Of a stretch of DNA of 64,000 nucleotides, positions 391-58,135 are shown in pieces. A program made the translations under genes and the position numbers. The stretch is taken from the NCBI GenBank assembly GCA_034231615.1, contig CM067298.1, forward strand, positions 9,414,140 to 9,478,139, in the 5' to 3' direction. The notes below the pieces were generated by a model. The model ran no database searches. It was not told the origin of the DNA and worked only from the letters and a program-made list of their open reading frames with translations. This DNA comes from Meghimatium bilineatum. Its lineage: Eukaryota > Mollusca > Gastropoda > Stylommatophora > Philomycidae. Numbering within the stretch: the first letter of the stretch is position 1; every line of letters starts with the position of its first letter.

Positions 391-514
391 AGTTATGTGT
401 CATGCCAAAAGGCGCAGAAATCGCAGCAATGTTGTAAACTATGACACAACGCATTCCGTTCTCCGGACTACATCCTGCTAATCTGCATGAGTTTGAGAAC
501 GAACGCAGAAGAAG
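391..514 (+). repeat. Family B retroposon, 5'-truncated
   Basis: This copy keeps the B core and 3' end. It has the H1 stem TGTGTCAT (396-403) paired with ATGACACA (441-448), and an inner GCC-AAAA-GGC hairpin just after the first arm. The conserved block CTCCGGACTACATCCTGCTAA follows in slightly shortened form, then the terminal GAACGAACGCAGAAGAAG. The upstream head seen in long B copies (for example 61722-61960) is absent. Short ORFs here are chance frames. Confidence 0.75.
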
Positions 515-539
515 TCTTTCGGAGGTGCAACAAAAAAGT

Positions 540-650
540 CTTCCTGTACACGTCGCGGCGACATCTTTGGCAAAGCGGCCTTTATTTCCACAGCCAAAAA
601 GCCTCCCTGCACTACTTAACAGGAAAATGCAGTAACGAATTTTTTTTAAT
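540..650. repeat. Short dispersed segment shared with 26655-26750
   Basis: About 90 bp containing TTTATTTCCACAGCC and CTTAACAGGAAAA recurs near 26.7 kb with scattered differences. No terminal repeats or coding capacity are visible. A (GT)n run lies just downstream at about 700-718. Confidence 0.4.
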
Positions 651-784
651 TTTAAACTTTTCACTTCTGAAGGCTCGCAAGATACAATCCAAATAACGGA
701 GTGTGTGTGTGTGTGTGTAGCATCATGGTTCAAAATACGGCTGCTATAATTTCGGCTTTCCATCCCACACTTTCTACACAGGTC

Positions 785-1045
785 AAGGGGGCCGCATAGC
801 ATAGTGATTAGCGCACTTTCTTTGCATATGAGTGGTCCTGTGTTCATTCTCCAGTTGATCCGGAAATTTTCACACCGCAACAGCTCAGGGGTCGGCCTTT
901 ATTGGGCACCGGATTAATCCGGAAAATAAATGCAATGAGGGATGAGGGAGAGGAGTACCGTGCCTCATATAGCAGGGTCACTGAAAAGTGAGATTGCTAA
1001 CAACTCACACCCCTACGGCATTAATAAAAGGATGAACTTTGCTTT
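785..1045 (+). repeat. tRNA-derived SINE candidate
   Basis: The 5' end reads like a tRNA. A box A-like TAGCATAGTGATTAGCGCA at about 796-814 is followed about 30 nt later by a weak box B-like GTGTTCATTCTCC. A non-tRNA body runs on to an ATAAAAGGATGAAC end near 1040. The spacing suits an internal Pol III promoter. The copy looks old. Confidence 0.45.
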
Positions 1046-1078
1046 TACTTGAGTCAATATACTGCCTGTGTTGCCGGG

Positions 1079-1316
1079 ACCCACAAGGGGAGACGAGAAT
1101 AGTTCGCCGTAAGAGGCGAATAAGGAGGTTATGATTTGGAGTTGGCTGTCCCATCCCATCTAGGGTTAAAGGAACTATGCTGATGTGTTATACCGAAAGG
1201 CTAAAATATCGCCTTTCTCAGTTTAAAATAAAAGCTACGCTGTAAACCATGACATTTCATTTCGTTCTCCGGACTACATCCTCATAATCTGCAGACGTTT
1301 CGGAACGAACGCAGAA
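1079..1316 (+). repeat. Family B retroposon, long form
   Basis: The B head module (CGTAAGAGGCGAATAAGGAGG, then a block ending GGCTGTCCCATCCCAT) is joined to the B core and the terminal CGGAACGAACGCAGAA. H1 is decayed here: the first arm reads TGTGTTAT and the second ATGACATT. This copy shows that the head belongs to family B and is lost from short copies. Confidence 0.65.
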
Positions 1317-1370
1317 TTATCAATATATACGGAAACAGGTATAGGATATATTTGTTACCAGCACCATAAA

Positions 1371-1445
1371 CACATACTAGAAACGAGACAAGGCGATAGA
1401 CGACATTTCGACTAAAAACCCTTCATCAGGACGAGACAATACACA
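1371..1445 (-). repeat. Penelope-type terminal sequence, ribozyme-like
   Basis: Read on the minus strand it has CCTGATGA (1430-1423) and, 13 nt on, CGAAA ending at 1406. This is the order of the hammerhead CUGAUGA...GAAA core found in Penelope-like element terminal repeats. Related segments lie at 2143-2173, 10330-10390, 11100-11160, 35740-35810, 47349-47385 and 50156-50190. Stem II is weak here, so activity is unlikely. Confidence 0.4.
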
Positions 1446-3957: not shown

Positions 3958-4009
3958 TTGACGACACACTAGTATACAAAGCGACCAATAAAAATAACGG
4001 ATAGTCATC

Positions 4010-4350: not shown

Positions 4351-4701
4351 GGGAATGAAATCTCAAATAGCATCACGTTTGAATACTGGTACCGATAAAT
4401 CTACATGACTATGGGGGATTCGATACCGCCATGTAATGAGCAATAGGTTATGCGTTCCACGAATGTCAAGTAATGGCGATATCGATACGCGTGCTGAATG
4501 AGACACTGTTTGGTCGATGGTCAACCCTAGACCGTGGACACTATAAAAACTGTAGAGCGGTGTGTAGACATTTGAAGAGATTTGGTTATGTCACTTTAGT
4601 GTCACCTGTTGTCATACTCGCACATAAACTTACAAGAACGGTCAGCTAACCTCACAGCACATGTCAGTTATCCTCGCACATAAATGTACAGTAGCAGTGA
4701 C
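4351..4701. other. Unannotated stretch
   Basis: No gene or recognised element. From about 4600 the sequence drifts into degenerate copies of the downstream minisatellite unit. Confidence 0.35.
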
Positions 4702-5330
4702 CAGCTATCCTTCACATACACAAACTTCCATTAGTCCCTAGTTATCCTTCATGAACACAAACTTCCATTAGTCCCCCGTTATCCTACACGAACACGAACT
4801 TCCATTAGTCCCCAACTATCCTTCGCGAACACACACTTCTTTAGTTCCTAGTTATCCTCCCCGAACACAAACTTCCGTTAGTTTCCAGCTATCCTTCACG
4901 AACAGACTTCTTAAGTTCCCTGTTATCCTCCCAGAACACAAACTTCCATTAGTTCCCAGCTATCCTTCACGAACACAAACTTCCATTAGTTCCCAGCATT
5001 CCTCCCCGTACACAAACTTCCATTAGTTTCCATCTATCCTTCACATACACAAACTTCCATTAGTCCCTAGTTATCCTCCCCGAACACAAACTTCCATTAG
5101 TTCTCAGCTATCCTTCACGAACAGACTTCTTTAGTTCCCAGTTATCCTCCCCGAACACAAACTTCCATTAGTTCCCAGCTATCCTTCACATACACAAACT
5201 TCCATTAGTTCCCAGCTATCCTTCACATACACAAACTTCCATTAGTTCCCAGCTATCCTTCGCGTACACAAACTTCCATCAGTTCCCAGCTATCCTTCGC
5301 GTACACAAACTTCCATCAGCTCCTTGCTGT
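4702..5330. repeat. Minisatellite, about 37-bp unit
   Basis: About 17 head-to-tail copies of a unit with CTATCCTTCAC and ACAAACTTCCATTAGTTCC. Units differ by substitutions and small indels (one subtype ends GAACAGACTTCTTTAGTTCC). No unique spacers separate them. The frame is broken by stops, so it is not a coding repeat. Confidence 0.9.
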
Positions 5331-5794
5331 ACATAAATTACTGCTAACACATTAAGGTTTTGCGCGCCACAGCAGATGCATGCGCCAGTCCCAACTGCAA
5401 ACTGACGCAATCATGCATTGATACGATAGCGCTGATACATCGACCTCACACGGACAAAAATCTGGCTATGAGAAAATATTGTCATTCAATAAGGTCTTAA
5501 CGAAGACAGTTGTAATACACATCTTTCTCATTTGCATGCAATTTCAGACGTGAATATGTAACGAAGATTAACAGAAACGAATAAAAATATTTACACGGGG
5601 GGGGGGGGGGGGGGGGGGAGCGCTCTCACAGGCCACAGAAAAGTAACTATTTAAATATCTAATGAGAAGATACATTTTTTTTAAACAGCCCTGAAGAAGA
5701 TTGGCAAGCTGTTTTAGGTTCCAAGAGGGCAATGATAGACAAAACATTTCAGACCTATTATCCTACATAGCAGTTTCTGACATCATCTGCGCGC
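5331..5794. other. Non-coding stretch with a 22-G run
   Basis: An uninterrupted run of 22 G lies at 5597-5618. No gene is seen on either side. Confidence 0.6.
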
Positions 5795-6195
5795 TGTCTC
5801 AAAACTCCTGCAGATTAGCAGGATGTTGTCCAGCGAGTGGAATGCATTGTATCGTCGTTCACATATTTGCTGAAATATATGCGCCTTTCCGCCGAAGACG
5901 GATGTGTCGGGCCATTGGCGCAAATAAAACGGCGACACAACGCATTTCCATTCTCTGGACTGCATTCTGCTGGAAATCTAGTAGGACATGTCCTGCTACA
6001 AGAGAATTCAGCAGGAGTTTGAGAATGTACGCTGAAGAAGAAATATGCGCCTTTCGGCCTGACATATCCGAGTTCAGCGTGGCATCTAGGTCACTTTGTC
6101 CATGTGATAGGACAGCCAACTCATCCACCCTCCTTCCCATGCGTGAAAAGTAAACAGTGTTGCTATTCTTTCTGTCCTTTCGGGACCTGGCAACA
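5795..6195 (-). repeat. Family B retroposon split by an A insertion
   Basis: The minus-strand B copy has its 3' part at 5795-5889 and its core and head at 6043-6195. The head includes the antisense of the ATGCATG and TTGCTATTCTTT...GTCC blocks. The split falls in the H1 loop. The sequence ATATGCGCCTTTC occurs on both sides of the inserted A element, so this B was resident before A arrived. Confidence 0.8.
5890..6042 (+). mobile_element. Family A retroposon, full length, perfect 13-bp TSD
   Basis: A 153-bp SINE-like unit bounded by ATATGCGCCTTTC at 5877-5889 and 6043-6055. It begins CGCCGAAGACGGATG and ends in a GAAGAAGAA tail. The H1 stem is TGTGTCG (5903-5909) with CGACACA (5933-5939), enclosing GCC-ATT-GGC. 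A second hairpin (H2) has CTGCTGGA and TTCAGCAGG arms around an AGGACATGTCCT palindrome. The 3' simple-repeat tail and variable TSD indicate target-primed reverse transcription. Confidence 0.9.
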
Positions 6196-6964
6196 CACGG
6201 GCGATTTCTGACATTTAAAAGTTGGGAAGGGGTGGACTTTTAATCCATTCATAATGGCAACATTGGTTGTGACTCGCGACCACCTAAGATTTTGACGTGT
6301 CTTTAGACGCCATTAGTAGCCAATGGATACACCATCCCTTCCAAATTAGGCTTTCTGTATCATATCTACTGAAAAAATAGCATGGTAATGAGACAAATCG
6401 ATATTTCTGAAGCACAACGTATACATTCACTAAGATCAGCAGAATAATTCAATCTACCAAAAGTAAAATAACATAGTTGCCATTATAAATCAATGCTCAT
6501 CTAAATAATAGTGTATCATATCTCCAGCTTGTTAATATTCTAAGGATCAGCTGCGCGGATAGAGCACATGTGTTCAGCGAGTCGAGCTTGCCGATACTTC
6601 CTTCTGCTCAGCAGACGGCATTACTGACAGCTGTGATGCGTACTGAGGACTCCCAAATCAATACTAGTGAGAGCAGCTGAGAAAGAAAACGGGGTTAGAT
6701 ATTGATGAATGTGGGTTGATTAACACGGATGTGCTGGACCGAAAAGAGCAAATATCGTGGCTTTGCTGCAATCTAGTAGCAAAGCACACTTATTTGTTAC
6801 AGACCGAACTAATTTAACTCAAATAATTCTTCAACGAAACGTTGTAGCATATTCTATTCAGAATATAGCCAACAACCCAGCGGTTTTTGCTGTAGTACCT
6901 TTCTATGCAATATAAATACGCTCAGTAATTTGCCATTACTTTCTGAACAGTTCCGATGAACATT
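6196..6964. other. Mostly unannotated; one B/C-like core at 6721-6790
   Basis: From 6721 a segment resembles the B/C core: GGATGTGCTGGACCGAAAAG, with TGTGCT (6730-6735) able to pair with AGCACA (6783-6788). A tRNA box A-like CAGCTGCGCGGATAGAGCAC lies at about 6548. No gene is recognised. Confidence 0.4.
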
Positions 6965-7037
6965 TGCGTACGGATTTGAACAAGGTACCTTAGCCGAGTG
7001 AGACGTGTTGTGTACCATTCCGCCACATAACCGCAAC
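6965..7037 (-). repeat. tRNA-like SINE head, target of the I-like LINE
   Basis: On the minus strand a box A-like GTGGCGGAATGGTA is followed by anticodon-arm-like sequence and a box B-like TTGTTCAAATCC. This resembles a Pol III promoter of a tRNA-derived SINE or a decayed tRNA. The I-like LINE inserted at its 5' edge, duplicating ATAACCGCAAC. Confidence 0.4.
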
Positions 7038-8959
7038 TTCTTCTTCTTCTTCTTTCGTTCGCTAATAATCTGCAGTGTTGTTTCTTGTATAAATTGGACA
7101 GTGTTTTCCATTTCTTGTTTTGTACCATAAAGTTTAACATTCATTGGTGTATCAGAAGGCCAGTATGTGCATCTTAATGTGTCATAGTTTGCACATTCTT
7201 GAAGGATATGTTCTGAAGTATAGTTGACTTGTCCACAATTACACTTTGCTGGTGTGCCAATTTTAAATTTTGCATACATATGGCTGTTTAGTCTATTGTG
7301 TCCAGTTCTCAGTCGAAATATGATGACCTGTTCTTGTCTGTTAAGTAGGTGGTAGTCGTCCCGTGGAGGTAAGTTAGGCTTTCGTTGTGCCTTTATCATG
7401 GATTTCTTTTGGTGATAGCTGATTGGTACATCCGGTTGCTGCATGTTAGCACCTTCCTTGGCGAGTTGATCAGCTCTCTCATTTCCTGCTATTCCACAGT
7501 GTGATGGAATCCATTGCAGTATAACTCTACACCTATTTTGTACTATGGACTCTGGACTCTTTTATGGACTATGGACTCTTTTTATGGACTGGATTCTTTT
7601 AACACTGAAATTTTATTGGATTGTAATGCCTCTAGTACTGACCTTGCATCTGTAAGTATTACAATAGGGTGTGAGGTCCTGTCCAATGTTAACAGTTTCT
7701 CTGCAGCTGTATAAATAGCTTTGACTTCAGTCATAGTTATTGCAGTAATTCCCTGTTGGTATACAAGTGGTATCAGTGGTGACATCTGGGTATTCTACAT
7801 ACACACCATTTCCTCCATTTTTTAACTGAATTCTGTGCTGATCCATCTGTGTATACTCTGGTCCATAGATCACTTGGGTAAACATCACCAAGGAAACTAA
7901 GAGCTGCTACTCTTTTCTGCAGATTATTCTGATGTCATCCCCATGCACACCTGCTACTGCTGTTTGGATGGTCACTGGTAGGCATGTCCGTTTTCCCCAT
8001 GGGGTGTGTTCTGGTTGAGATGTCAGTGGTATTGTTACCTCTGTCAGATCCGATACCTGTCAACGTAGACGCTTGGCCTGGTGTATGAAGCTGCTTCTTT
8101 TAAACCGCCCTTGTGACAGATTCTGGAATCTTTCCTTCATTGGGTGACTATGGTGGGAAAGAAACTTTTCTCCATGAATTATAATTTTAGTATCTCTACG
8201 CTCTTTCAATGACTGCATCCCTTCGATATTCTGCATTTCTATGATTGGTGTGGATCTCATTGCGCCTGTAATGATTCTAAGTGCTTGGTTCTGTACTCTA
8301 TCTAGGTTTTGTAGTGTAGTGTTTGATGATGAACTCCATGCTGTAGAACCATATTCCAAGTGTGGTCGAATGGCTTGTTGGTATACATTTTTTATAATTC
8401 TTTCATTAGCTCCCCAAGTTGTCCCACTCAGTTTTCTTAGTATAGCTATCTTCCTTTTAGCCTTTGTTTCTGCTTTGCTGATATGATGTTTCCATGTCAT
8501 TTTGGCATCAAATGTTACACCAAAATATGTGGGTTGGTCATCTAATTTTAAGATAGTTTTATTTACATAGATGTTTCCTGCTCTTTGTTTTGGTGAAAGT
8601 GTAAAAAGGGTTGTTGCTGACTTCTCTATATTGATACTTACACACCATTTGTCAGCCCAATTAGTCAAAATGTCCATGGCTCTCTGAAGCATTTTTGTGG
8701 CAACCATGGCGCTCTCATGTATGCACCATAGAACCAAGTCATCTGCATATAGTGCTGCCTTAGTTCCACATGGTATTTCTTCAATTAGATCATTGATAAA
8801 TATGAGAAAAAGAGTGGGTGATAGAACTCCTCCTTGAGGCACTCCATGGCGTAGTAATACTTTCCTACTTTTTTTGCCATTTACTTGTACTCTGGCTCTT
8901 CTATTGTGAAGAAAGGCTTTAGTCCATCTATACATATTTCCACATATCTTGTAGTTTCT
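7038..8959 (-). mobile_element. I-like LINE, 5'-truncated, RT + RNase H + Zn motif
   Basis: The perfect 11-bp duplication ATAACCGCAAC (7027-7037 and 8960-8970) bounds the copy. On the minus strand a 291-residue RT ORF (8935-8060) carries GVPQGGVLSP and YADDLVLW. A broken RNase H follows (YTDGSA near 7840, then VILTDARSVLEAL). The C-terminal domain (7444 downward) has IFRLRTGHNRL and a CNCG...EHILQEC zinc-knuckle-like motif. The 3' end is AGCGAACGAAAGAAGAAG. The domain order matches RNase H-bearing I-superfamily LINEs. Frameshifts and stops separate the domains, and a TATGGACTCTTTT microrepeat has expanded inside RNase H (7530-7600). ORF1 and the endonuclease are missing. Confidence 0.9.
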
Positions 8960-8970
8960 ATAACCGCAAC

Positions 8971-9613
8971 GAAACAGAGGTTCTCAATGCGCAGAGTATT
9001 TATTTATTTGTTCTCGCGTTTCCCCGAATGTACCATGTACCTCTTAAAAGAGCAACAATGTACACTGTAGAGAGTATCTTTCAAAGCACGTAACGACAAC
9101 AATGCTTATAGCCTCAGATAAAAATGAATGATAGACCTCACGGCTCTATTTCGAACCCACAACCTTACAGTACAGGCAGCATCACTGCTGTCTTGTATAA
9201 TAGTTAGTTAGTCGTTGGATCATCGTCATTGCACTCCGGACAAGTCCATAGGTGCTCAGATCTTTCCTTGAGTGTATCCGCCATTACACGTTGACTGACA
9301 GTCCCAGTACGTTGTTGATTGACCATCATTCTTTTTCGCCCACGAAAACTCTCCTTTCTAGCGACACCACATTTCAAACCAAGTTCCTTTATTCTAATCA
9401 TGGAACAACAGTCATCGTCGCTTGTACAGTCATTTGTTCGTGAGTTTTCACGTAGGGCATTCAAAATGTTTGCCCGATCCATCGCTCCACTAACAGCCGT
9501 AGAAGCAGCACTTCAATATGTGCCCCCCCCCCCCAACGGTACAAGTACGACCAAAATCGGCATAGTTTATAGAAAAATGTCAAATTCAACCTATTTATTT
9601 AATATATTTATTT
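8971..9613. other. Unannotated; orphan 92-codon ORF on the minus strand
   Basis: The minus ORF at 9482-9204 ends in WTCPECNDDDPTTN, a lone CxxC, with no recognised family. On the minus strand near 9195-9125 a GGTTGTGGGTTCGAA box B-like segment suggests another tRNA-derived SINE head. A C-run lies at about 9523. Confidence 0.3.
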
Positions 9614-12734: not shown

Positions 12735-13110
12735 GGTACTGGGTCAACAACAGATCATCACCTTTCGAATTAGAACTTCGCCGAAGACGGATGTGTAGGG
12801 CCATTTGCGCAAATAAAACGGCGACACAACGCATTTCCATTCTCTGGACTACATCCTTCTGGAAATCTAATAGGACCATTGTCCTGATACAAGAGATATC
12901 CAGTGGGAGTTTGAGAATGAACGCTGAAGAAGAAGAATTAGAACTGGCCACTGCAGGCTAAAGAGCCACCTGTTCAGATGGTCCGACAAATGAATGTCCA
13001 TGCGGAACATGCGTACAGACCCACTGAACACATACTCCAAGGATGTCCAGAATACAAAGAATTGCGAGGAAAGATATAGCCACACCGGCCTGAACTGTGG
13101 CAAAACAATT
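12735..13110 (+). pseudogene. I-like LINE C-terminal fragment split by an A insertion
   Basis: With the inserted A skipped, codons on the two sides match the C-terminal domain of the I-like LINE. The left side has a QQQIITFRIRT-like stretch up to 12778 and the right side has GHCRLKSHLFR from 12946. A zinc-knuckle remnant (CPCGTC...EHILQGCPEYKELR) follows after a frameshift. The fragment was already inactive or became so with the A insertion. Confidence 0.75.
12779..12934 (+). mobile_element. Family A retroposon, 11-bp TSD
   Basis: Flanked by GAATTAGAACT at 12768-12778 and 12935-12945. The body has the A order (CCGAAGACGGATGTG, GCGCAAATAAAACGGCGACAC, a TAGGACCATTGTCCT near-palindrome, GAACGCTGAAGAA). 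One H1 arm reads TGTGTAG against CGACACA. It lies inside an I-like LINE fragment. Confidence 0.9.
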
Positions 13111-15790: not shown

Positions 15791-15814
15791 CTATGCATTG
15801 GTATACTTCTCTCT

Positions 15815-18124: not shown

Positions 18125-18277
18125 AGTCGAAGACGGATGCGTCGGACCATTGGCGCAAATAAAACAGCGACACAGCGCATTTTCATTCTCTGGACTACAT
18201 CCTGCTGGAAATCTAGTAGGACCATGGTCCTGCTACAAGAGAATTCAGCGGGAGTTTGAGAATTACCGCTGAAGAAG
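18125..18277 (+). mobile_element. Family A retroposon
   Basis: Near-complete A with the perfect 14-bp palindrome AGGACCATGGTCCT (18218-18231), GGAGTTTGAGAATTACCGC and a GAAGAAG tail. One H1 arm has mutated to TGCGTCG opposite CGACACA. No TSD is readable. Confidence 0.85.
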
Positions 18278-18389
18278 TACTATTGAAATGTGTGTCTTAC
18301 CAGCAATGTTGTCTTTCTGTGGTTGTACTCTTGAAATGTGTCTTTTGTCGTTGCACTCTTGAAATGTGTGTCTACGTTGTCTGAAATCA

Positions 18390-21342: not shown

Positions 21343-21500
21343 AGCCAAAGACGGATGTATCGGGCCATTGGCGCAAATAAAACGGCGACACAAAGCATTT
21401 CCATTCTCTGGACTACATCCTACTGGAAATCTACAATGGATCATGGTCCTGCTACAACAGAAATCCAGCAGGAGTTTGAGAATGAACGCTGAAGAAGAAG
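21343..21500 (+). mobile_element. Family A retroposon
   Basis: Complete A layout with H1 arms TGTATCG and CGACACA, and H2 arms CCTACTGGA and TCCAGCAGG (an A-G clash at one position). The inner palindrome is mutated to TGGATCATGGTCCT. It ends GAACGCTGAAGAAGAAG. The TSD is unclear. Confidence 0.85.
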
Positions 21501-21504
21501 CTGA

Positions 21505-22148
21505 AAGACTAATCACTGAACTGCTGAAGAAATGCACAGAACACTGGCCAGCTGTGGACATGATAGAACACACACCACAGATATGATCAAATAGAGTGTA
21601 GGACACTCTCAAGATCACCGAACTGCTTAAGACATGGATATGATAATGAACATTGATATATCTGATGATAGGACACTATTGACCTGTCAATGCATATTTG
21701 GAACACAGATCAATGTCTATCAAGACATGATACAACAGTTTGAACAATGTCCAGATCGAGATATGGTAGGACATTGACCACAGATCTGCTAAAAACATAG
21801 TTAGGAGAAAGATCACTACTTCTGCGTTCATCCTGAAACTACTGTAAATTAACAGGATGTAGTCCGGAGAATGAAATGCACTGTGTCATGTCATAGTTTA
21901 CAGTTTTGCTGTTATCTGCCTTTTGGCATGACACATCATACTTCAGCATGGCCTCTAGGTCATTGTGACCATATACGGGATGGGACATTCAACCCCATCT
22001 CATAACCTTCTTAGTCACCTCTTATGAAATGCATGGAAAGTAAAGTATTGCTATTCTTTGTTCCCCTTTCAGACCCTGACAAAATACTGTGACACGGATC
22101 AATGACTAATCCAAGATATGATAGGACACAAATCACTGACCTGTTATG
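21505..22148. repeat. Diverged edge of the satellite block
   Basis: Degenerate units carrying GATAGGACACT, CACTGACCTG and AAGACATGATA motifs spread from about 21580. This is the oldest-looking part of the array ending at 25690. It is interrupted by the B copy at 21815-22085. Confidence 0.65.
21815..22085 (-). repeat. Family B retroposon, long form, in satellite
   Basis: Antisense long B with core and head: GTCCGGAGAATGAAATGC, H1 arms TGTGTCAT and ATGACACA, GCCTCTAGGTCATTGTGACC, CCATCTCATAACC and TTGCTATTCTTTGTTCCCC. It shows the complete order of the head modules. Confidence 0.85.
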
Positions 22149-23051: not shown

Positions 23052-23343
23052 ATAGATAGGACACTGATTGTTAACCTGCCAAAGACATACTGTCAGATAG
23101 GACACTGATTGTTAACCTGCCAAAGACATACTGTCAGATAGGACACTGATTGTTAACCTGCCAAAGACATACTGTCAGATAGGACACTGATTGTTAACCT
23201 GCCAAAGACATACTGTCAGATAGGACACTGATTGTTAACCTGCCAAAGACATACTGTCAGATAGGACACTGATTGTTCACCTCCTAAAGACATACTGTCA
23301 GATAGGACACTGATTGTTCACCTCCTAAAGACATAGATGGGAC
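23052..23343. repeat. Satellite subarray, 41-bp unit
   Basis: About seven near-identical 41-bp units with GACACTGATTGTTAACCTGC and CATACTGTCAGATAG. The last two read TTCACCTCCTAAAG. It shares GATAGGACACTGATTG with the neighbouring subarrays. Confidence 0.9.
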
Positions 23344-28480: not shown

Positions 28481-28485
28481 GTTTG

Positions 28486-29796
28486 TTCGTTTGTTTTGCG
28501 TTCGCTCCATTGTAACCATCACGGATATCCGTATGATTTCCGCCGGGAGCGTGATTACGTTGTGCCACCGTTATGCGCCTTGTAGGCCTAGCACATCCGA
28601 TTTCGGCATGCCTTGACAATTCTCACGCCTCTATATCTGTCTCCTGGCACGCGTAGTGGCGACTCTTCGCCCAGACTATTTTTGCTCTCGTCTGACTCGC
28701 ACGAGGTGTTCCACTGTCTATGAACTTGCCTCGTGTAATTGGACGTGCTGTGCCCATTGGGTACTGAACCGTTTCTCATCCGTGAGCCTGGTTCCTTAAG
28801 GAGAAGAACTCAACCGAGGAGTTGGACCCTGGCTCTTTCGCCCTCTTAGCCGAGGTGTCATTCACCGACATCGTGTACCCCTTGTCCAAGTTCGAGTCTC
28901 ACACCACGCGTTTGAGAGCAAGGCGTTCTCGAGCTGAGCGTCCTTGTCCCAATAGCGCCTGAGCCCATCAGGTACTGAACCCTTTCTCTCTTCAAGTGTA
29001 TTTCCGGTGTAGAAAAACCTGACAGTAGAGTTGGGCCAGGGCTAAACCGTTGTCCCTTTTGTGCCTGATCCCATTGGGTACGGAACCCTTTCTCTCTGCA
29101 AGTGCGCTTCCGGTATAGGAAACCTTGACAGTAGAGTTGGGCCAGGACTACCATCGTTGTCCCTTTTTTGCCTAAGCTCGTCGGATACAGAACCCTTTCT
29201 CTTCGTGAGCATATTTCCGGTTTAGTTCGACATAGCTCGACATTTGAGATGGATTAGGTCTTTTTGCTTTACCAAACGCCAATGAATAGGTCTGGGTCTC
29301 TGCCTGTAAGGGACACAGGTAACTAGAAGCTCGTCTCGAGCTGACTAAGCTTGTAGTTCCCCTTTCCTAGGGACTTTTCACTTTCTATTTGCAGTTCGCG
29401 CTGCCCTCTAGCGCTGTTCTGCCCTTTCATTGTTTCATTGTACTCGGTATGAAATCTATTCGTCTCTCGCCATGCATCTACCTTTACGTGCATTTTACAT
29501 TGGCCGCCCCTCCAATGTTCGGACTGAGCTGACTAGCTTCACTGTATGTCGACAGTGTCGTTATATGTGGTGATGCTGATGGTGTCGGAGATATTGTCTG
29601 TCTCTTGTGCAGTCAAATCTCTTTCTATCTGCTACCTCCACATTCTCGGACACGATCCCCAAATGATTTGGCCAGAATCAGCTCGAGCTGCTGTGTTTCT
29701 GTTTCCAGGGTGCACCGCGTGGAGGTACATTTGGGATCTTGGTTATCTGCTAACCCTGGGTCCGCCTAGAGCAATGCGTTCCCTTTGCACCCCTGT
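28486..29796 (-). mobile_element. Family C element, copy 1
   Basis: A 1.3-kb element in antisense. Its sense 3' end (left) is GGAGCGAACGCAAAACAAAC. It holds H2 (CGCTCC at 28503-28508 with GGAGCG at 28556-28561 around CACGGATATCCGT), H1 (TTGTGC with GCACA), three to four internal repeats of about 103 bp (GGTACNGAACCCTTTCTC... TTCCGGT...GAGTTGG) and a unique part ending GCGTTCCCTTTGCACCCCTG. TGTTCGCATAGT and TGTTCTCATAGT flank it, though these also belong to the host minisatellite. ORFs inside have no domain. Confidence 0.8.
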
Positions 29797-32324: not shown

Positions 32325-32935
32325 GTTCAACGAATGTGCTATTTCGGCTTAACATACGGGTGTGAAAGGACACTAAATAAACAATTAGAAGACAGAATTG
32401 ATGCCTTTCTTCTTCTTCAGCGTTCATTCTCAAACTCCCGTTGGATCTCTCTTGTAGCAGGACCATGGTCCTATTAGATTTCCAGCAGGATGTAGTCCAG
32501 AGAATGGAAATGCGTTGTGTCGCCGTTTTATTTGCGCCAATGGCCCGACACATCCGTCTTCGGCGGAAATTGGTGCCTTTGAGATGTGGGTATATAGAAG
32601 AATAGGGAGAACGTCATGGAAAGAGAAGAAAACAAATAAAGAGGTGCTAAAGACACTTAATATGAAGAAAGAACTACTAAGAGAAATAAAGATCAGGCAA
32701 ATAAAATATTTTGGACACATTAAAAGACATGACACCTTATTGAAGACCTTACTTGAGGGTAAAGTCAAAGGGAAGCGAGCAAGAGGTAGGAAGAGATACA
32801 AGTGGGAGAGTAACATCACACGATGGACAGGTTAGTCTAACAGAGTGCACCACCAAGACAAGAGACAGGTGATGTTGGAGATCCGTTGCAGCCAACCTTC
32901 GTTGCGGAGACGGCACTTGATGATGATGTGAAAGC
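32325..32935 (+). pseudogene. RTE-like LINE tail split by an A insertion
   Basis: Left part: LTYGCERTLNKQLEDRIDA. Right part from 32576: FEMWVYRRIGRTSWKEKKTN, LREIKIRQIKYFGHIKRHDT and KGKRARGRKRYKWESNITRW. The 3' UTR GTTGCAGCCAACCTTCGTTGC ends in GATGATGATG. Codons are continuous across the A insertion apart from the TSD. Confidence 0.85.
32409..32568 (-). mobile_element. Family A retroposon, 12-bp TSD
   Basis: Antisense A with tail CTTCTTCTTCAG at left. Flanks ATTGATGCCTTT (32397-32408) and ATTGGTGCCTTT (32569-32580) differ at one base. H1 is perfect (TGTGTCG, CGACACA) and the palindrome AGGACCATGGTCCT is intact. Confidence 0.9.
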
Positions 32936-34019: not shown

Positions 34020-34450
34020 TGAAGAGGCCCGAGAAGGGAGCAAGGAATAACAATGTTACCTGTCACTCATGTCGTAAGAGGCATCTAAGGAGATTCTGCG
34101 GTGGAGTTGACTATCCCATATCTTCGTCATCAGAGTTCATTCTCAAACTCCTACTGGATCTTTCTTGTAGCAAGAACAAGGTCCATTCTAGATTACCAGC
34201 AGGATGTAGTCCAGAGAATGGAAATGCGTTGTGTCTCCGTTTTATTTGCGCCAATGGCCCGACACATCCGTCTTCGGCTGAGATATCCCATATAGGGTCA
34301 AAAGGACACAGAAACCATAATGAAGTCGGATGTATCAGGCCATAATTCACATGAACTGTCACGAAGCTGTAATCTATGACACAGCACATTCCATTCTCTA
34401 GGCTATATCTTGCTGATCCACAGGAGTTTGAGAACGAATGTAAAAGAAAA
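34020..34450 (+). repeat. Family B retroposon, long form, split by an A insertion
   Basis: Head at 34030-34121 (GGGAGCAAGGAATAAC, GTCGTAAGAGGCATCTAAGG, GACTATCCCATAT). Body at 34284-34450 (CATATAGGGTCAAAAGG, GAAGTCGGATGTATCAGGCC, ATGACACAGCACATTCCATT, GTTTGAGAACGAATG). The insertion point sits at TATCCCATAT. Confidence 0.8.
34122..34283 (-). mobile_element. Family A retroposon, 10-bp TSD, inside B
   Basis: Antisense A bounded by TATCCCATAT at 34112-34121 and 34284-34293. H1 reads TGTGTC and GACACA. The palindrome is mutated (AGAACAAGGTCCAT). Confidence 0.9.
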
Positions 34451-34504
34451 CTTTCTTTCTACGTGTGTTACAGGTACCAGAAATTACACAACTGGAAGAT
34501 AGTG

Positions 34505-34658
34505 TTCTTCTTCATCCCTCATTCCACACTCCAACTGGATCTCTCTTGTAGCAGGACAATGGTGCTACTAGATTTCTAGCAGGATGTAGTCCAGAGAACA
34601 GAAATGCGTTGTGCCGCCGTTTTATTTGCACTAATGGCCCGACACATCCGTCTTCGAC
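34505..34658 (-). repeat. Family A retroposon
   Basis: Antisense A with CTTCTTCATCCCTCATTC, GGATCTCTCTTGTAGCAGG and GACACATCCGTCTTCGAC. The first antisense arm reads TGTGCCG while the second is CGACACA, giving a G-U or mismatched pair in H1. Confidence 0.8.
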
Positions 34659-43084: not shown

Positions 43085-43700
43085 ATGGAGATTGCACTTT
43101 TTAAGTTTATACAGCCCCATCGAGGCCAGCAGCTTTAAGTGGTGATAGAACTAAGTTCAGCCATCAGTGACTTTGAAAACTAAGACTGGTCGGGCAGTCC
43201 CACTCGAGCAGGACTATATTCCTGTCCAAGTAAGCAGAGTGCTGAAGACGGAAGTAACCAACCAAAAGGCGGACAATTAATCAGAATGGTACATACAAAA
43301 CACAATGGAACCATGTCTATATTCAAAGATAGGTATGGTGCCTGCCCTGTGACGGACGTCCAGGAAGGGACAGTGCCGGGCCTATACATGAAAAGCCCAA
43401 ACTCCAATTACAGGAGACCCTTCTCAATTGCCCCGAGGAGCCAGGAGGCAAGGTGTGAACTACAAAAGACAGTGAGTTTTATTTTTGTTCTTCAGCATTC
43501 ATTCAAACTACTGCTTGATCTCTCTTGTAGCAGGCGATGGTCCTACTAGATTTCCATGATGTAATCCAGAGTATGGATATGCGTTGTGTCGTTGTTTAAT
43601 TTTCGGCAATGGTCCGACACATCCGTCTGTGGCAGAGTTTTATTCAGGAGAAATAATTACAGATATAGATATGTTTCAATCGAACGAAAGAAGCAGAAGA
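43085..43700 (+). mobile_element. Family D: internally deleted I-like LINE derivative, copy 1
   Basis: The first part (CCCCATCGAGGCCAGCAGC through GTGCCTGCCCTGTGACGG, GGCCTATACATG and GAGGAGCCAGGAGGCA) matches the 5' region of the I-like LINE seen in antisense at 47690-48000. The last part (TGAACTACAAAAGACAGTGAG, ATTACAGATATAGA, GAACGAAAGAAG) matches that LINE's 3' end at 57470-57550. The protein-coding middle is missing. An A element interrupts it at 43484-43634. Confidence 0.8.
43484..43634 (-). mobile_element. Family A retroposon, 10-bp TSD, inside D
   Basis: Antisense A bounded by GAGTTTTATT at 43474-43483 and 43635-43644. Contains CATTCATTCAAACTACTGC, TAGATTTCCATGATG and GACACATCCGTCTGTGGC. 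Confidence 0.9.
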
Positions 43701-45605: not shown

Positions 45606-46131
45606 TATTTTCGGATATTGAATCCAAGGTAAGAGATACGGCGAAACGAAAGTCTGATAGCATACAACTAGAAAAGGAAAACAATTTCTTCTGAGAACAA
45701 AACCTGTGGCTTGCAACGTGGAGATTACCAACCATCATAACAAGCAGAGAAGTTAGAGATCGGTAGACATTCTCTAAAATACTATACGATCGAACAACAA
45801 TTTGCAGTAACGAAACAATTAAGACGAGTTGTAAAGTGGACGGTCAGAGGAAGTAGATTAATCGGGATAGCGAACCGTTAAATGTAGACGTTAACTCGTA
45901 GCAGTAGATCTTTTGATGCAAGTATTTGATTTCTTGTTGATGTGCATAATTGATGCCCTTGATGTCCTTAACTAGTTGTTCTACACAAAAATAAAGTCTT
46001 CGAGTTGAAGACGTTGAATGATACATCACTTGTATCGTGTTACTGATTAAATGTACATCAGTTGTCAGTGATTACATATTATAGTTTTTTATACTGATAT
46101 GTTGATTCGGTTGGTTTTTGTTTCTTGATGT
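45606..46131. other. Unannotated stretch
   Basis: No recognised gene or repeat. Confidence 0.3.
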
Positions 46132-47348
46132 TTTGTTTGTTTGTTTTGCGTTCGCTCCATTGTAACCATCACGGATATCCGTGCGATTTCCGCCGGGAGC
46201 GTGATTACGTTGTGCCACCGTTATGCGTCTTGTAGGCTAGCACATCCGATTTCGGCATGCCTTGACAATTCGGGTGGGATACCTTTAGCCTGTGACAGCC
46301 TCTATATCTGTCTCCAGGCACGCGTAGTGGCGAATCTTCGCCCAGACGATTTTTGCTCTCGTCTGACTCGCACGAGGTGTTCCACTGTCTATGAACATGT
46401 CTCGTGTAATTGGACGTGCTGTGCCTGTGCCCATTGGGTACTGAACCGTTTCTCATCCGTGAGCCTGGTTCCTTAAGGGGAAGAACTCAACAGAGGAGTT
46501 GGACCCTGGCTCTTTCGCCCTCTTAGCCGAGGTGTCATTCACCGACATCGTGTACCCCTTGTCCAAGTTCGAGTCTCACACCACGCGTTTGAGAGCAAGA
46601 CGTTCTCGAGCTGAGCGACCTTGTCCCAATAGCGTCTGAGCCCATCAGGTACTGAACCCTTTCTCTCTTCAAGTGTATTTCCGGTGTAGGAAAACCTGAC
46701 AGTAGAGTTGGGCCAGGGCTAAATCGTTGTCCCTTTCTTGCCTAAGCCCATCGGGTACGGAACCCTTTCTCTTCGTGAGCAATTTCCGGTTTAGGAATGC
46801 TCGACATTAGAGTTGGATTAGGTCTTCTTGCTTTACCAAACGCCAATGAATGGGTCTGGGTCTTTGCCTGTAAGGAACACAGGTAACTAGATGCTCGTCT
46901 CGAGCTGACGGAGCTTGTAGTTCCCCTTTCCTAGAGACTTTTCACTTTCTATTTGCAGTTCGCGCTGTTCTGCCCTTTCATTGTTTCATTGTACTCGGTA
47001 TGAAATCTATTTGTCTCTCGCCATGTATCTACCTTTACGTACATTTTACATTGGCCGCCCCTCCAATGTTCGGACTGGACTGACTAGCTTCACTGTATGT
47101 CGACAGTGTCGCTATATGTGATGATGCTGGTGGTATCGGAGATATTGTCTGTCTCTTGTGCAGTCAAATCTCTTTCTATCTGCTATCCCCACATTCTCGG
47201 ACACGATCCCCAAATGATTTGGCCAGAATCAGCTCGAGCTGCTGTATTTCTGTTTCCTGGGTGCACCGCGTGGAGGTACATTTGGGATCTTGGTTATCTG
47301 CTAACCCTGGGTCCGTCTAGAGCAATGCGTTCCCTTTGCACCCCTGTT
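46132..47348 (-). mobile_element. Family C element, copy 2 (best preserved)
   Basis: A 1.2-kb antisense copy. H2: CGCTCC (46153-46158) and GGAGCG (46196-46201) enclose the perfect palindrome CACGGATATCCGTG (46170-46183). H1: TTGTGCC and GCACA. Then GGCATGCCTTGACAATTCGG, three roughly 103-bp internal repeats, a GAGCTGACGGAGCTTGTAG region and a terminal GCGTTCCCTTTGCACCCCTG. No ORF with a domain. It is closely similar to copies 1 and 3 with scattered differences. Confidence 0.85.
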
Positions 47349-48000: not shown

Positions 48001-48356
48001 AAGAGCTTACCTCAATGGAAACAGTCATATATAAATATTGACAAAACCAAAGATTTATATGTTACTCTTAACACGGGTTGTGATCCTGCTTTCCCAAATG
48101 GGGGTTAATCAATGCCTTGACCATTGTCAGTCTTTTCTTAACTTCAGCTATTGATTCACCATTACCACTAATGTAGATTCTACGTTAAGTAAACGTCGAA
48201 ACTTCATCAACCTTCGATTATAAGATTTACCTGTATATTGGTTGGGACTCATCTGCATTGATCTCCATGCCAAATTGTTTAGATATATATTTACAATCTT
48301 GATAACTCTTGTAATTATGCATCTGTTGTCGCTATCAGACCTATGTCATTAATCTC
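48001..48356. other. Region upstream of the Penelope ORF
   Basis: Probably holds the decayed N-terminal part of the Penelope-like element, but no certain match could be read in any frame. An AAACGTCGAAACTTCATCAA motif at about 48189 resembles a Penelope-type end. Confidence 0.3.
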
Positions 48357-50339: not shown

Positions 50340-51465
50340 TTAGCAATTTGGCGACATCCGACTTATGTTGTTAAATGGAATTCCTTCAACACTTCTCTCA
50401 CGATTGCGTATAGGTAAATGTTAAATAGTGTTGGTGAAAGTAAGCATCATTGTCGCACTGTTTTAAAAAAAGTCACCGACTTCGTTGTTTATGAACATAT
50501 CACTTTTTGTATCTTAATATAGAACATCTGTGACGACGATGATATTGTCAAAATTAAACTGTATCATAGTATTCCACAGACCTGCATGCCAAACTCGGTT
50601 TAAAAAAAAGCTTTGTTGAGATCAATAAAGTTATCAAATAGGTCGTATAGGTGTTGTAAGAGCTTTTCATTTCTTCTTCTTCTTCAGTGTTCATTCTCAA
50701 GCTCTCGTTAGATCTCTATTGCAGCAGCAGGACAATGGCCATACTAGATTTTCAGAAGGATATAGTCTAGAGAATGGAAATGCGTTGTGTCGCCGTTTCA
50801 ATTGCGCCAATGGCCCGACACATCCGTCTTCGATGGAAGCTTTTCGTTTAATAGGCGTAGAGTGAAAGTTTGTTCTTCTGTACTTCTGTTCTTCCGGAAG
50901 CCGGTTTCTTCTTCTCAGTGCGTTCGATGTATGGTGAGTATCTGTTTTCACACCTCATTGATGCAGTTTGTTCCCAATATATATTTCTAATCAGTCTGAT
51001 GTATTTTCCATCTATACCTATTTCTTGAACACATTTGATTAATTTTTCATGTTGGACTCTATTAAAGGTCTTGCTATAGTCTATAAAGCAAATATAGATA
51101 CTCTTTTGGACTTCTAATTATTTATCTATCACTAGTCGGATACTCAGTATAGATTCTCTGGTTCCTTTGTTTTTCCTAAAACAAAATTGTTGTTCACCGA
51201 CCTCCATGTCTATATTGTTCTTAATTCTTTCGTGTATTATCTTGAGGAGTATTTTAGTTAAATGACTCATTAGACTTATTGTTCTATATTATGTACAGTC
51301 CACAACCCTGTGCTTCTAGGTAGTGGTATGAATAGAGTTTTTATTATATCTGCTGTTATGTTGTCGGAGCCTACAGCCTTTCCACATTTTAATGATTTTA
51401 TTGCATGTTCTACTTCTACTTTCAGTATTGCTGGTTCATCGTTGTTGTGTATTGTTGGTTTTAAA
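50340..51465 (-). pseudogene. RTE-like LINE RT pieces split by an A insertion
   Basis: Minus strand, upstream first: NKNSIHTTT-like and YRTISLMSHLTKILLKIIHE (51300-51240), FCFRKNKGTRESILSIRLVI (about 51180), SICICFIDYSKTFNRVQHEK (about 51060) and VQEIGIDGKYIRLI. Beyond the A insertion a second piece has LFDNFIDLNKAFF (about 50620) and LSPTLFN-like residues (about 50430). Two similar RT copies or a rearranged one may be present. Confidence 0.75.
50673..50837 (-). mobile_element. Family A retroposon, 12-bp TSD
   Basis: Antisense A with a CTTCTTCTTCTTCAG tail. AGCTTTTCATTT (50661-50672) and AGCTTTTCGTTT (50838-50849) flank it. H1 is perfect (TGTGTCG, CGACACA). Confidence 0.85.
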
Positions 51466-51467
51466 TG

Positions 51468-51585
51468 GGTTGTGCCGCCGTTTTAATTTGCGCCAGTGAC
51501 TCGGCACATTCGTATTCTGCGTGCCTTTAATTCGGGTGAACTTCATTAGCCTGTGACAGCCTTCCTATCTGTAGCCAGGCGGCGA
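51468..51585 (-). repeat. A/C intermediate core
   Basis: Antisense segment whose H1 loop is A-like (GCCGTTTTAATTTGCGCC) but whose downstream part is C-like (TTAATTCGGGTGAAC...TTAGCCTGTGACAGCC). H1 arms TGTGCCG (51471-51477) and CGGCACA (51502-51508) differ from family A by one compensated base pair. It joins the two families. Confidence 0.75.
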
Positions 51586-52264
51586 GTGTGTATTGCCTCT
51601 ACGTCGAGACTTCTTTTCTTTCTTTTCGCTTTATACCCCTTTGTGCCTTTCAGCGTCAGTAGTTGAAGAGTTCTCTAGAGATGAATTTTGTGTGTGCTTC
51701 ATATATGTTTTCGCTGACTCCTTTATTTATGTAATCCATCATTTGCATGGTTTGACCTGGCTTTGTATCCATTGCGTCTGTATATCAATGATGTCGAGTA
51801 AAATACGTCGCGCGAGACGGTGACCGGATAGTGAAACTTAGTTAATCCTCTAGGGCAGTGTTTCCCAACCTTTTTTGGCTATGCCGAACCTAAGTCTTTC
51901 TAAAATTCTTATGTCCCCCTTTGTAACATATACATATTTTTTTAATATACAAAAATTGAATTATTCCATAAATGAAGCCTAATTACAACTTGTTCGATGC
52001 CCCCCCCCCCGCCCTAGATAATCAAATTGCCCCCCTGTGGGGTGTGGGCCCCACGTTGTGAAACACTGCTCTAGGGACAAAGACGGTACATAGGGCGAAT
52101 ATCATAGATTTCCATGTATCTCGTTTCATTGCAACTTGCTTTAGATTTTCATTGCTTCTGATACCGACGGTGAAACGTTCTCTTGTAATAATTCTACGTA
52201 ACGTTTCTTTTGGTCTTCCTCGTTTTCTCTTTCCATTTGGCGACCACATAAATGGGAAAGTGAA
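51586..52264 (-). pseudogene. RTE-like LINE tails around a hAT insertion
   Basis: The right part (52264-52077) encodes FMWSPNGKRKRGRPKETLRR and NLKQVAMKRDTWKS, the tail seen at 20691-21330. The left part (51848-51590) resembles the tail at 20185 (TTTGACCTGGCTTTGTATCC, GAGTTCTCTAGAGATG). The hAT element separates them. Confidence 0.65.
51856..52068. mobile_element. hAT non-autonomous element, perfect 8-bp TSD
   Basis: 213 bp with ends CAGTGTTTCCCAAC and GTTGTGAAACACTG. It is flanked by CTCTAGGG at 51848-51855 and 52069-52076, the 8-bp duplication typical of hAT transposases. Internal sequence is AT-rich with a C-run and GTGGGGTGTGGGCCCCAC. No ORF, so it was mobilised in trans. Confidence 0.85.
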
Positions 52265-55306: not shown

Positions 55307-55451
55307 TTTCACCGGCTAGGCCTAAATGCACGCATATATATCTCTGATTTTTTATGGACGAATTGCGAATGTTTATTTTAATGCATGTGTAGTCCTATCT
55401 GCCTTTTATGTGATGATGTAGGCCTACACTACACTTATAATTATTATTATG

Positions 55452-55520
55452 TAAAATCTAGTAGGACTGTCCTGCTACAAGAGAGATCCACCGGGAGTTT
55501 GGAAATGAATGATGAAGAAG
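55452..55520 (+). repeat. Family A 3' fragment
   Basis: AAATCTAGTAGGACTGTCCT, GCTACAAGAGAGATCCACCG and a GATGAAGAAG tail. It abuts inverted-repeat element copy 2. Confidence 0.75.
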
Positions 55521-55530
55521 ATTTGTAAAA

Positions 55531-55842
55531 CTGCGGATCAACTCTTCACTGCGAACTCACTGTTAACATATTTACAAAGCTGACGTCACCTATTTCCCAC
55601 TGTGCATGCCCAGTCAACTATTAACCAAGTGGCAATAAACTTTAAAATTATAACTAATTTATTTATTACTTTATAACAAATGATAACCCTTACCCCCTCC
55701 CTAATCTGAATGCTAATGCCAGATCAATATTCCATTTAAAATAACATAATTTAATTTTAATTACAACTTCTGCAGTCACACTGCAAAGGTTAGGTAATAC
55801 CTCGAAACAGAACAAAGGTCACAGTGAAGAGTTGATCCGTAG
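55531..55842. mobile_element. Inverted-repeat element, cluster copy 2
   Basis: 312 bp with GGATCAACTCTTCACTG at left and CAGTGAAGAGTTGATCC at right, 21 bp in all with one mismatch. The interior matches copy 1 in inverse order (AATACCTCGAAACAGAACAA, AGGTCACAG near the right end). Confidence 0.75.
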
Positions 55843-55970
55843 TTGTGCCAGAAGAATAAAGTATGTGCACTGACTTGTATGTGAATTTTCAAAATGTAAA
55901 ATTACACCACAAAGCTGTCACAAATAAATGATTTTGTTGTAACCACTTGATATCATTTTTCTAGAGGCGC

Positions 55971-56386
55971 AAGTTGCTTTTAATTTTATGTTGTGACCTT
56001 TGCTCTAGTTTCGTGGTATTTCCTAATCTGTGTTGTGTGATTTGGCTTAATATGTAGTACTTAATTACGGTTAAGTACTTAGAGTACGGTTAGGATTAGA
56101 AATAACATTTCTAATGTGTGCATGCACCTCGCTCCATGTGTAGCGGGTAGAAATACTCATCGTTCAGTACAAATAATAGGACATTTTTTAAAATTTGTAA
56201 ATTGGAAAAGAAACAGTTTATGCTTAAGTTTTGTCTGTATCTAGATTTTAACTCAGTGATTGTCGGGATGTGACATCATGGCAGTCATTAATTTCATTGG
56301 TTTTTAAACGGAAATCCATGACGTCACCTAGTTAAAAATGTAAACAGTGTGCTATTTATAGCACAATGTAGAATCAAAAGCAACTT
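55971..56386. mobile_element. Inverted-repeat element, cluster copy 3
   Basis: About 416 bp. Left AAGTTGCTTTTAATTTTA faces right GAATCAAAAGCAACTT. The GTGCTATTTATAGCAC palindrome and the GACCTTTGCTCTAG, TTAGGATTAGAAATAACATT and AATCCATGACGTCA blocks match copy 1, but the outer ends are different sequence. Confidence 0.7.
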
Positions 56387-56502
56387 TTACTTTTTCTATG
56401 CCCTAGTTAGTAGTTAATAGATGATGATATTTGGGTGAAAATGCAGTATGGGTCTCTGTTGGGCTATAAATACTAATAGCGCACTATTTATGACATCACA
56501 GG

Positions 56503-58135
56503 GGTGCAAAGGGAACTCATTGCTCTATACGGATCCAGGGTTAGCAGATAACCAAGATCCCAAATGTCCTCGCTGTGCACCCTGGAAACAGAAATACAGC
56601 AGCTCGAGCTGATTCTGGCCAAATCATTTGGGGATCGTGTCCGAGAATGTGGAGGTAGCAGATGGAAAGAGATTTGACTGCATAAGAGACAGACAATGTC
56701 TCAGACATCACCACATATAGTGACACTGTTGACATATAGTGACACTGTTGACATACAGTGAAGCTATTCAGTCCAGTCCGAACATTGGGGGGGCGGCCAA
56801 TGTAAAATGCACGTAAAGGTAGATGCATGGCGAGAGACAAATAGATTTCATACTGTGTACAATGAAACAATGAAAGGGCAGAACAGCGCTAGTTGGCAGC
56901 GTGAACTGCAAATAGAAAGTGAAAAGTTCCTAGGAAAGGGGAACTACAAGCTCCGTCAGCTCGAGACGAGCTTCTAGTTACCTGTGCTCTGTACAGACAG
57001 ACCCAAGCATTGGCGTTCGGAAAATCAAGAAGTCCTAACCCAACTCTAATGTCGTGCCTTCCTAAACTGGAAATATGCTCATGAAGAGAAAGGGTTCCGT
57101 ACCCGATGGGCTCAGGCACAAAAGGGACAACGATTTAGCCCTGGCCCAACTCTACTGTCAGGTTTTTCTACACCGGAAATACACTTGAAGAGAGAAAGGG
57201 TTCAGTACCTGATGGGCTCAGGCGCTATTGGGATCAGATCAGAACTAACAGATCAGAACTAGTTATAATTCTACGTCTCAGAACAGGACACAACCAACTC
57301 CGCAGTCACATGTATACAAAGTTCAAGATTAGCAACACAGCCATGTGTACATGTGGACAGGCAGCACAGAGTGCCAAACATATACTTCAAGAGTGTTCTG
57401 AGCATGAAACGCTGAGGCAGACATATTGGCCAGAGGGAACAACACTGGAATCAAAGCTTTATGGAACACTGTATGAACTACAAAAGACAGTGAGTTTTAT
57501 TAAGGAGACAGAATTACAGATATAGACATGTTTCAAGTGAACGAAAGAAGAAGCCCTGGCCCAACTCTACTGTCAGGTTTTCCTACACTGGAAATACTCT
57601 TGAAGAGAGAAATGGTTCAGTACCTGATGGGCTCAGGCGCTATTGGGACAAGGACGCTCAGCTCGAGAACGCCTTGCTCTCAAACACGTGGTGTGAGACT
57701 CAAACTTGGACAGGGGGTACACGATGTCGGTGAATGACACCTCGGCTAAGAGGGCGAAAGAGCCAGGGTCCAACTCTTCCGATGAGTTCTTCCCCTTAAG
57801 GAACCAGGCACACGGATGAGAAACGGTTCAGTACCTGATAGGGCACAGTGTGTCCAATTACACAAGGCAAGTTCATAGACAGTGGAACACCTCGTGCAAG
57901 ACAGACGAGAGCAAAAATTGTCTGGACGAAGAATCACCACATACACGCATGCCTGGAGACAGATATTGAGGCTGTCATAGGCTAGGGTAACCCACCAAAA
58001 TTGTCAAGGCATGCTGAAATCGGATGTGCTAGGCCTACAAGGCGCATAACGGTGGCACATCGTAATCATGCTCCCGGCGGAAATCGCACGGATATCCGTG
58101 CTGGTTACAATGGAGCGAACGCAAAACAAACAAAC
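56503..58135 (+). mobile_element. Family C element, copy 3, with I-like LINE insertion
   Basis: Sense orientation: starts GGTGCAAAGGGAACTC and ends GGAGCGAACGCAAAACAAAC. H1: GATGTGC (58023-58029) with GCACATC (58055-58061), inner GCC-TACAA-GGC. H2: GCTCC and GGAGC around CACGGATATCCGTG. An I-like LINE tail lies at about 57240-57552. About 100 bp of C (from GCCCTGGCCCAACTCTACTG to GGCGCTATTGGGA) occurs on both sides of it. Confidence 0.85.
57240..57552 (+). pseudogene. I-like LINE C-terminal tail, 5'-truncated
   Basis: Encodes ITRTS..LVIILRLRTGHNQL-like residues, SHMYTKFKIS, CTCGQAAQSAKHILQECSEH (zinc-knuckle-like), TLRQTYWPEG and LYELQKTVSFIKETELQI. The 3' end is TTTCAAGTGAACGAAAGAAG. It matches the 7-kb LINE. 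Confidence 0.85.

Follow-up and report, generated by a model that had tools for sequence, protein, structure and literature searches.

Stem-loops at the 3' end are needed for retrotransposition of the long interspersed nuclear element (LINE) or the short interspersed nuclear element (SINE) in several described pairs, and their recognition by reverse transcriptase has been tested for the eel pair UnaL2/UnaSINE1, according to the accessible text of PMC5135761. Likewise, monocot L1-clade LINEs and their SINEs, described by Ohshima, have ~50 nucleotides (nt) in common and show compensatory changes in a shared 3' hairpin (accessible part of PMC3747384). Here we examined 64,000 nt of the gastropod Meghimatium bilineatum (assembly GCA_034231615.1, contig CM067298.1, positions 9,414,140 to 9,478,139 of the forward strand; hereafter the window) and describe a 3'-terminal module of two hairpins, H1 and H2, that is carried by five non-autonomous retroposon families (A, B, C, E and F). 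A preliminary description of the window had proposed that H1 unites A, B, C and two intermediates and is under selection as an RNA fold used for transcription, reverse transcriptase recruitment or packaging. The second hairpin, H2, was absent from that description and is stronger evidence than H1.

The module runs in the order H1, H2, GAACG and a short-repeat tail, with the two hairpins spanning roughly 110–150 nt and H1 forming one half of it. In the families read to the end it terminates the element behind differing bodies, with none in A, an upstream body in B, ~1.1 kb in C and a C-like upstream part in E, and GAACG adjoins the tail in all five SINE-side consensuses. Compared with the monocot pairs, as the accessible part of PMC3747384 presents them, there is the same combination of a 3'-end hairpin, compensatory stem changes and conserved bases that directly follow the stem on its 3' side (CGAG in monocots, GAACG in our window), but our module has two hairpins and the LINE ends here share the last bases only, with no hairpin seen. 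With the eel and other stringent-type pairs it has in common that the non-autonomous RNA carries a 3' stem-loop and, after it, a short tail repeat; recognition by reverse transcriptase was tested in those pairs and is here proposed from sequence, with a candidate as the helper LINE (PMC5135761, accessible text). H2 is, as in the stringent type, a 3'-terminal stem-loop kept by paired changes, although the GGAUA loop of the eel pair was not seen by eye in the H2 consensuses. Because of these monocot and eel 3' stem-loop precedents, we regard the module as a new case of an already known type and not as a new element class; no published description of this two-hairpin module was found in the open literature searched. 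Bov-A2 is a SINE built only from LINE-derived sequence. The same holds for the Persaeus SIDE (accessible part of PMC6740152), and family A, a short 3' module without a recognised RNA polymerase III (Pol III) head, is like both, but for A no parent LINE carrying the module was found. As in the molluscan SINEs with highly conserved domains (V/RUDI, Meta), several bodies share one 3' part, to judge from the available text of PMC10294476; unlike in these SINEs, no tRNA-related head was detected in the window.

We then compared the arms of the family consensuses. H1 reads TGTGTCG/CGACACA in A, TGTGTCA/TGACACA in B, TGTGCTA/TGGCACA in C, TGTGCCG/CGGCACA in E and TGTGCTG/CAGTACA in F, and all 35 cells over the five consensuses are paired, two of them by G.U; pairs 1–3 are invariant, pair 4 varies on one side and pairs 5–7 are double-changed. 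H2 reads CATTCTC/GAGAATG in A and E, CGTTCTC/GAGAACG in B, CGCTCC/GGAGCG in C and CGCTC/GAGCG in F, with 32 of the 34 counted cells paired; pairs 2, 3 and 6 are double-changed, and the cells that fail to pair are pair 7 of C and pair 6 of F. With slid partners as controls only 20–50% of cells were paired for H1 taken with the CCG hairpin, and 29–52% for H2. When letters were shuffled, the paired cells and the covariation score were each reached in 5 of 500 shuffles for H1 with the CCG hairpin and in 0 of 500 for H2. An arm-position permutation over the five consensuses gave 0.005 for H1 and 0.23 for H2 with fully paired variable columns, and 0.0095 and 0.019, respectively, with identical family partitions. 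RNAalifold, a check suggested in the preliminary description, returned the CCG hairpin, H1 and H2 when run on four consensuses (A, B, C and E), and a search of the window for the A-type stem pattern (up to three mismatches) gave 13 matches compared with 1.94 expected, with none of 100 shuffles reaching 13.

All ten arm strings quoted in the preliminary description occur exactly where it had placed them, and the small GCC...GGC hairpin with its variable loops is indeed retained. H1 is common to A, B, C and the copy at 51.5 kb. This last copy, on the minus strand, represents a separate family, E, and is not a member of A. The register reported for C (GATGTGC/GCACATC) was corrected to TGTGCTA/TGGCACA with one U.G pair: of the C copies read, the one at 58 kb alone has the outer GA/TC, and the others have AC after CACA. 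Family membership of the intermediate at 6.7 kb is not supported: in 264 kb a covariance model of H1 (default filters) matched 92 places at E up to 1, this one not among them, no H2 was seen by eye after the stem, and BLAST similarity of this place was confined to 30448-30486 (39 bases, 82%).

Covariation was assessed against a tree null, in which the substitutions of a family-constrained tree are re-placed at random positions and a G-type covariation score is summed over pairs. For the window copies (32 rows, with those at 51.5 and 6.7 kb left out and the F copy counted with C), 1 of 300 simulations was as high for H1 and 0 of 300 for H2; an analysis of 34 window rows gave 0 of 400 simulations for all helices. 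For wider sets we took 131 A, B and C pieces outside a duplicate locus (L001) and omitted those with <75% of a consensus, leaving 81 rows; of these, eight were dropped beforehand (seven similarity-fetched A loci, and one B row replaced by a joined version) and two older rows were added, giving 76 copies (34 A, 34 B, 7 C including the F copy, and 1 E). In this set 34, 1 and 0 of 1000 simulations were as high for H1, H2 and all pairs, respectively, and in a set of 106 copies (34 A, 34 B, 15 C, 12 E and 11 F) the corresponding numbers were 6, 2 and, for all 28 pairs, 1 of 1000, the best slid control being H2 at +3 (26 of 1000). In some families three of the pairs (6 and 7 in H1, 2 in H2) have CpG in both arms, and since decay of both CpGs yields CA/TG, matching by chance half the time, swapped pairs could be mimicked at these positions. 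When the 106 copies were compared with a CpG-aware null, 0 of 1000 simulations were as high for all pairs, 7 for H1 and 1 for H2, and 0 of 1000 for the three non-CpG varying pairs jointly, which were chosen post hoc. On the null-test results H2 is therefore better supported in most tests, while H1 is supported with less independence than was previously held. Between families, the data support the view that an RNA fold of these retroposons is under selection.

Family A is ~158 nt long and essentially the module alone, beginning with (T)CCGCCGAAGACGG, continuing through H1, H2 and GAACGC and ending in a (GAA)n tail. Its copies begin at one fixed place (CCGCCGAAG), with H1 toward the 5' side, and of the families read it is most closely related to non-autonomous E, specifically to the 3' end of the latter. 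Target-site duplications (TSDs) were ~10–14 bases long and accompanied oligonucleotide tails: in 22 of the 32 near-full A copies examined the 5' and 3' flanks aligned with a score of 8 or more, compared with 4.2% of shuffled pairings. By origin these were 7/11 copies in the window, 7/13 in random stretches, 7/7 in loci fetched by similarity to a window copy and the single bystander in such a locus (1/1), so that window and random-stretch copies only give 14/24. This controlled test shows that A retroposed. In the genome (1.61 Gb in 32 contigs searched), 22 of 40 scored matches out of 1792 first-look candidates, the window copy included, were 100% identical over at least 112 bases, which indicates that A moved recently. 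These data suggest that ~158 nt of module are enough in cis for the spread of A, and this minimal 158-nt element is suited to mapping the cis requirements of a SINE.

Abundance was sampled in twenty 10-kb stretches with fixed positions on contigs 1–20, where BLAST identified 40 pieces of A, 32 of B, 4 of C and 1 of E. About 10 of the 40 A pieces are one tandem array in a single stretch (L017), and element counts are therefore lower; extrapolated from these 200 kb, A and B are each present at a scale of 10^5 copies. The module marks an abundant animal retroposon group, with five families whose paired changes outline a putative 3' recognition structure. In the same stretch (L017:3312-3861, minus strand) we observed, within an A-like copy, a ten-copy tandem array whose 52-base unit is the apical part of H2, possibly a newborn satellite.

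Family B is ~250 nt long; its upstream body includes a sequence resembling AAGAGGCGACTAAGGAG, probably of a kind found in molluscan SINEs. By inspection B retroposed, with one copy showing a clear TSD by eye. A further hairpin with an H1-like layout, GTTGC/GCAAC around GGTCC-CGAAA-GGAC followed by an A-rich strand, was seen by eye in the 5' part of B (at about 1062-1312 and 6050-6240 of the window), and one B copy (L003, about 1800-2095) is inserted in a LINE ~60 bases before the LINE's 3' end. Family C is ~1.2 kb long with (AAAC)n tails and likewise retroposed by inspection, TSDs being seen by eye in three window copies; with the window LINE as sole tblastn query, C bodies in the window showed no reverse-transcriptase similarity except for an inserted LINE piece. 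Forty relatives of the C 5' end were scored of 2839 candidates, and a single C-like relative (L020:9660-9790, minus strand) has H1 TGTGCTA/TAGCACA, a further pair combination. E joins a C-like upstream part to an A-like module, with 40 scored relatives of 1277 first-look candidates and 12 loci read, and in three E copies (L034, L037 and L038) the 3' half of H2 is repeated. For F, 40 relatives of 4305 candidates were scored and 10 modules read, and here the small inner hairpin is lengthened in place (CCTCGG/CCGAGG).

On balance, we think it probable that the module is a SINE-type 3'-terminal RNA domain recognised in trans by the reverse transcriptase of a LINE, chiefly through H2 and the tail. 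The folded 3' end would present its GAACG-(GAA)n or (AAAC)n tail to the LINE reverse transcriptase in trans, and at a nicked target the LINE would copy the retroposon RNA by target-primed reverse transcription, with H2, beside the tail, as the putative main recognition element and H1 as an accessory or stabilising domain. Reverse transcriptase recruitment, one of the roles first envisaged for H1, is accordingly plausible for the module as a whole, but mostly via H2 and the GAACG tail rather than H1, and no evidence was found for a packaging role of the fold. The candidate helper is a LINE at 7–9 kb with a match to RVT_1 (E 1.4e-17; 64.6 bits, cut-off 29.6) and a borderline one to RNase H (E 1.5e-5; 25.7 bits, just under the cut-off of 25.8). 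GAACG precedes a GAA-type tail in 6 of the 9 LINE 3' ends read, with a one- or two-base variant in the other 3, and two LINE ends resemble the SINE ends beyond shuffles (0 to 62 of 5000), in a post hoc comparison of non-independent families.

Several results weigh against recognition of this kind, or against the selected fold on which it depends. None of the 9 LINE 3' ends (about 75–230 bases each) showed an H1 or H2 of its own, and the candidate LINE shares only about 10–25 terminal bases, which were chosen after being seen. In the letter shuffles, neither the double-changed pairs (101 of 500 for H1 with the CCG hairpin, 93 of 500 for H2) nor the number of pair types (441 and 500 of 500) were unusual, and the small helices alone showed no covariation (314 of 1000, 106 copies). 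The preliminary description had named a lack of covariation above a phylogenetic null as the result that would count against it; this null was exceeded by the five families jointly, but covariation was absent inside A (261 of 300 simulations at least as high) and weak inside B (55 of 300), where the null was not clearly exceeded. The covariation rests on differences among five families and hence on few independent events, and H1 minus its two CpG-type pairs gave 56 of 1000 under the CpG-aware null. Furthermore, while H2 is in the predicted minimum-energy fold of all five consensuses, H1 is in that of B and F only (pair probabilities 0.76–0.98), and none of its pairs exceeds a probability of 0.02 in A, C or E. 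Over the H1 region of A the energy model prefers CGCCG/CGGCG with TGTGTCGG/TTGGCGCA (-15.7 compared with -11.6 kcal/mol), a rawer, slightly different F consensus with more flank folded without H1, and fold z-scores were -5.0, -2.5 and -1.6 for A, B and C, respectively. As modelled, these folds strengthen H2, leave H1 open in A, C and E, and do not alter how probable we hold the readings to be.

The main alternative is that what keeps the fold is not recognition by reverse transcriptase but transcription, definition of the 5' end, RNA processing or a bound host protein, comparable to SRP9/14 on the Alu fold. We consider this somewhat unlikely, although it accommodates the lack of H1 and H2 in the LINE ends and the position of H1 on the 5' side of A, whose copies share their fixed start. 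The promoter or processing signal of A is also unrecognised: ARAGORN found no tRNA genes and Rfam no families at the gathering threshold in the window, so that no Pol III-type head recognisable as tRNA, 5S or 7SL was identified there, though B may have a degenerate tRNA-like head. In B, C and E, however, the module sits at the 3' end, far from the 5' end, which makes a promoter or 5'-processing role less natural, and a GGYGCARAT stretch has only a loose resemblance to an A box by eye. At 5700-6330 the sole match to known RNA families was one chance small nucleolar RNA (snoRNA) match (E 4.9), and readings of H1 as an H/ACA snoRNA or as a hammerhead, hepatitis delta virus (HDV) or twister-like ribozyme were dropped after inspection by eye only. 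A search for one exact 21-base pattern gave 0 hits in a viral contig and 0 in a genome contig collection, which may omit this genome.

The invariant TGTG of H1 has two possible partners, a near CGCA, chosen by the energy model in A, C and E, and a far CACA, chosen in B and F; such dual pairing may be a switch, or the energy model may be at fault. A broader proposal would be a SINE superfamily defined by RNA architecture and not by sequence, in which the two covarying 3' hairpins are joined as one module to 5' bodies that are unrelated and among which it moves, the naked module A (~158 nt) is itself recently active, and H1 is perhaps a two-state switch between transcription and reverse-transcription forms; we regard this as rather doubtful.

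Less probable again is that no selection acts on the fold, the palindromic arms having been inherited from a single ancestor, while matching CA/TG arose on both arms through CpG decay and everything else by chance. The CpGs in both arms at three pairs fit this explanation, as do the decay of copies within families without compensation, the weak result for H1 once its CpG-type pairs are removed, and double-changed pairs that do not exceed letter shuffles, but the excess over the CpG-aware null, for H1, H2 and the three non-CpG varying pairs alike, and the complete pairing of H1 across five families count against it. Finally, it is very improbable that the arms function at the level of DNA, as a palindrome in a cruciform or at the end of a fold-back DNA transposon, and not in the RNA: they are perfect inverted repeats in young copies, but they lie inside elements with tails and TSDs, unlike the terminal inverted repeats of tailless fold-back or miniature inverted-repeat transposable elements, and the sense strand of the consensus stems has several G.U pairs compared with one A.C.

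Table 1. Module-bearing copies and related features of the window (positions counted from its first letter).
Feature	Position	Strand	Particulars
B module	375..515	+	H1 396-402/442-448, H2 457-463/495-501; tail GAAGAAG
Longer B copy	1062..1316	+	upstream body (AAGAGGCGAATAAGGAG); TSD TCAATATA by eye
A copy	5888..6047	+	H1 5903-5909/5933-5939, H2 5949-5955/6021-6027; (GAA)n tail; TSD ATATGCGCCTTTC; inside a minus-strand B copy (about 6240-5750)
Stem of the preliminary description at 6.7 kb	6730..6788	+	letters present, membership unsupported
LINE, candidate helper	7025..8983	-	RVT_1, borderline RNase H; 3' end AGCGAACGAAAGAAGAAG
A copy	12777..12940	+	TSD GAATTAGAACT
A copy	18125..18288	+	decayed H1 TGCGTCG/CGACACA; no clear TSD
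A copy	21343..21505	+	no clear TSD
C copy	28484..29796	-	TSD by eye
A copy	32404..32569	-	intact H1 and H2; TSD
A copy	34112..34281	-	TSD
A copy	34500..34658	-	H1 TGTGTCG/CGGCACA, U.G at pair 5
A copy	43476..43636	-	inserted in LINE 3' end
C copy	46126..47347	-	TSD by eye
A copy	50672..50838	-	TSD
E copy, 3' part lost	51463..51610	-	H1 TGTGCCG/CGGCACA; plus-strand arms 51471-51477/51502-51508
C copy	56498..58144	+	~1.2 kb plus inserted LINE 3' fragment (~57234-57551); H1 58025-58031/58053-58059, H2 58069-58074/58112-58117; tail (AAAC)n; TSD by eye
3' fragment of related LINE	57246..57551	+	end GTTTCAAGTGAACGAAAGAAGAAG
F copy	60482..61101	+	H1 match 60952-61037, TGTGCTG/CAGTATA

Elsewhere in the window, a long open frame (48353-50074, plus strand) has similarity to reverse transcriptase and GIY-YIG below the Pfam cut-offs and is presumably a Penelope-like element. 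There are also two tandem arrays, one at 4701-5323 with 17 copies of a 37-base unit and a higher-order period of 219, and another at 23328-25691 with 67.5 copies of a 35-base unit at 96%.

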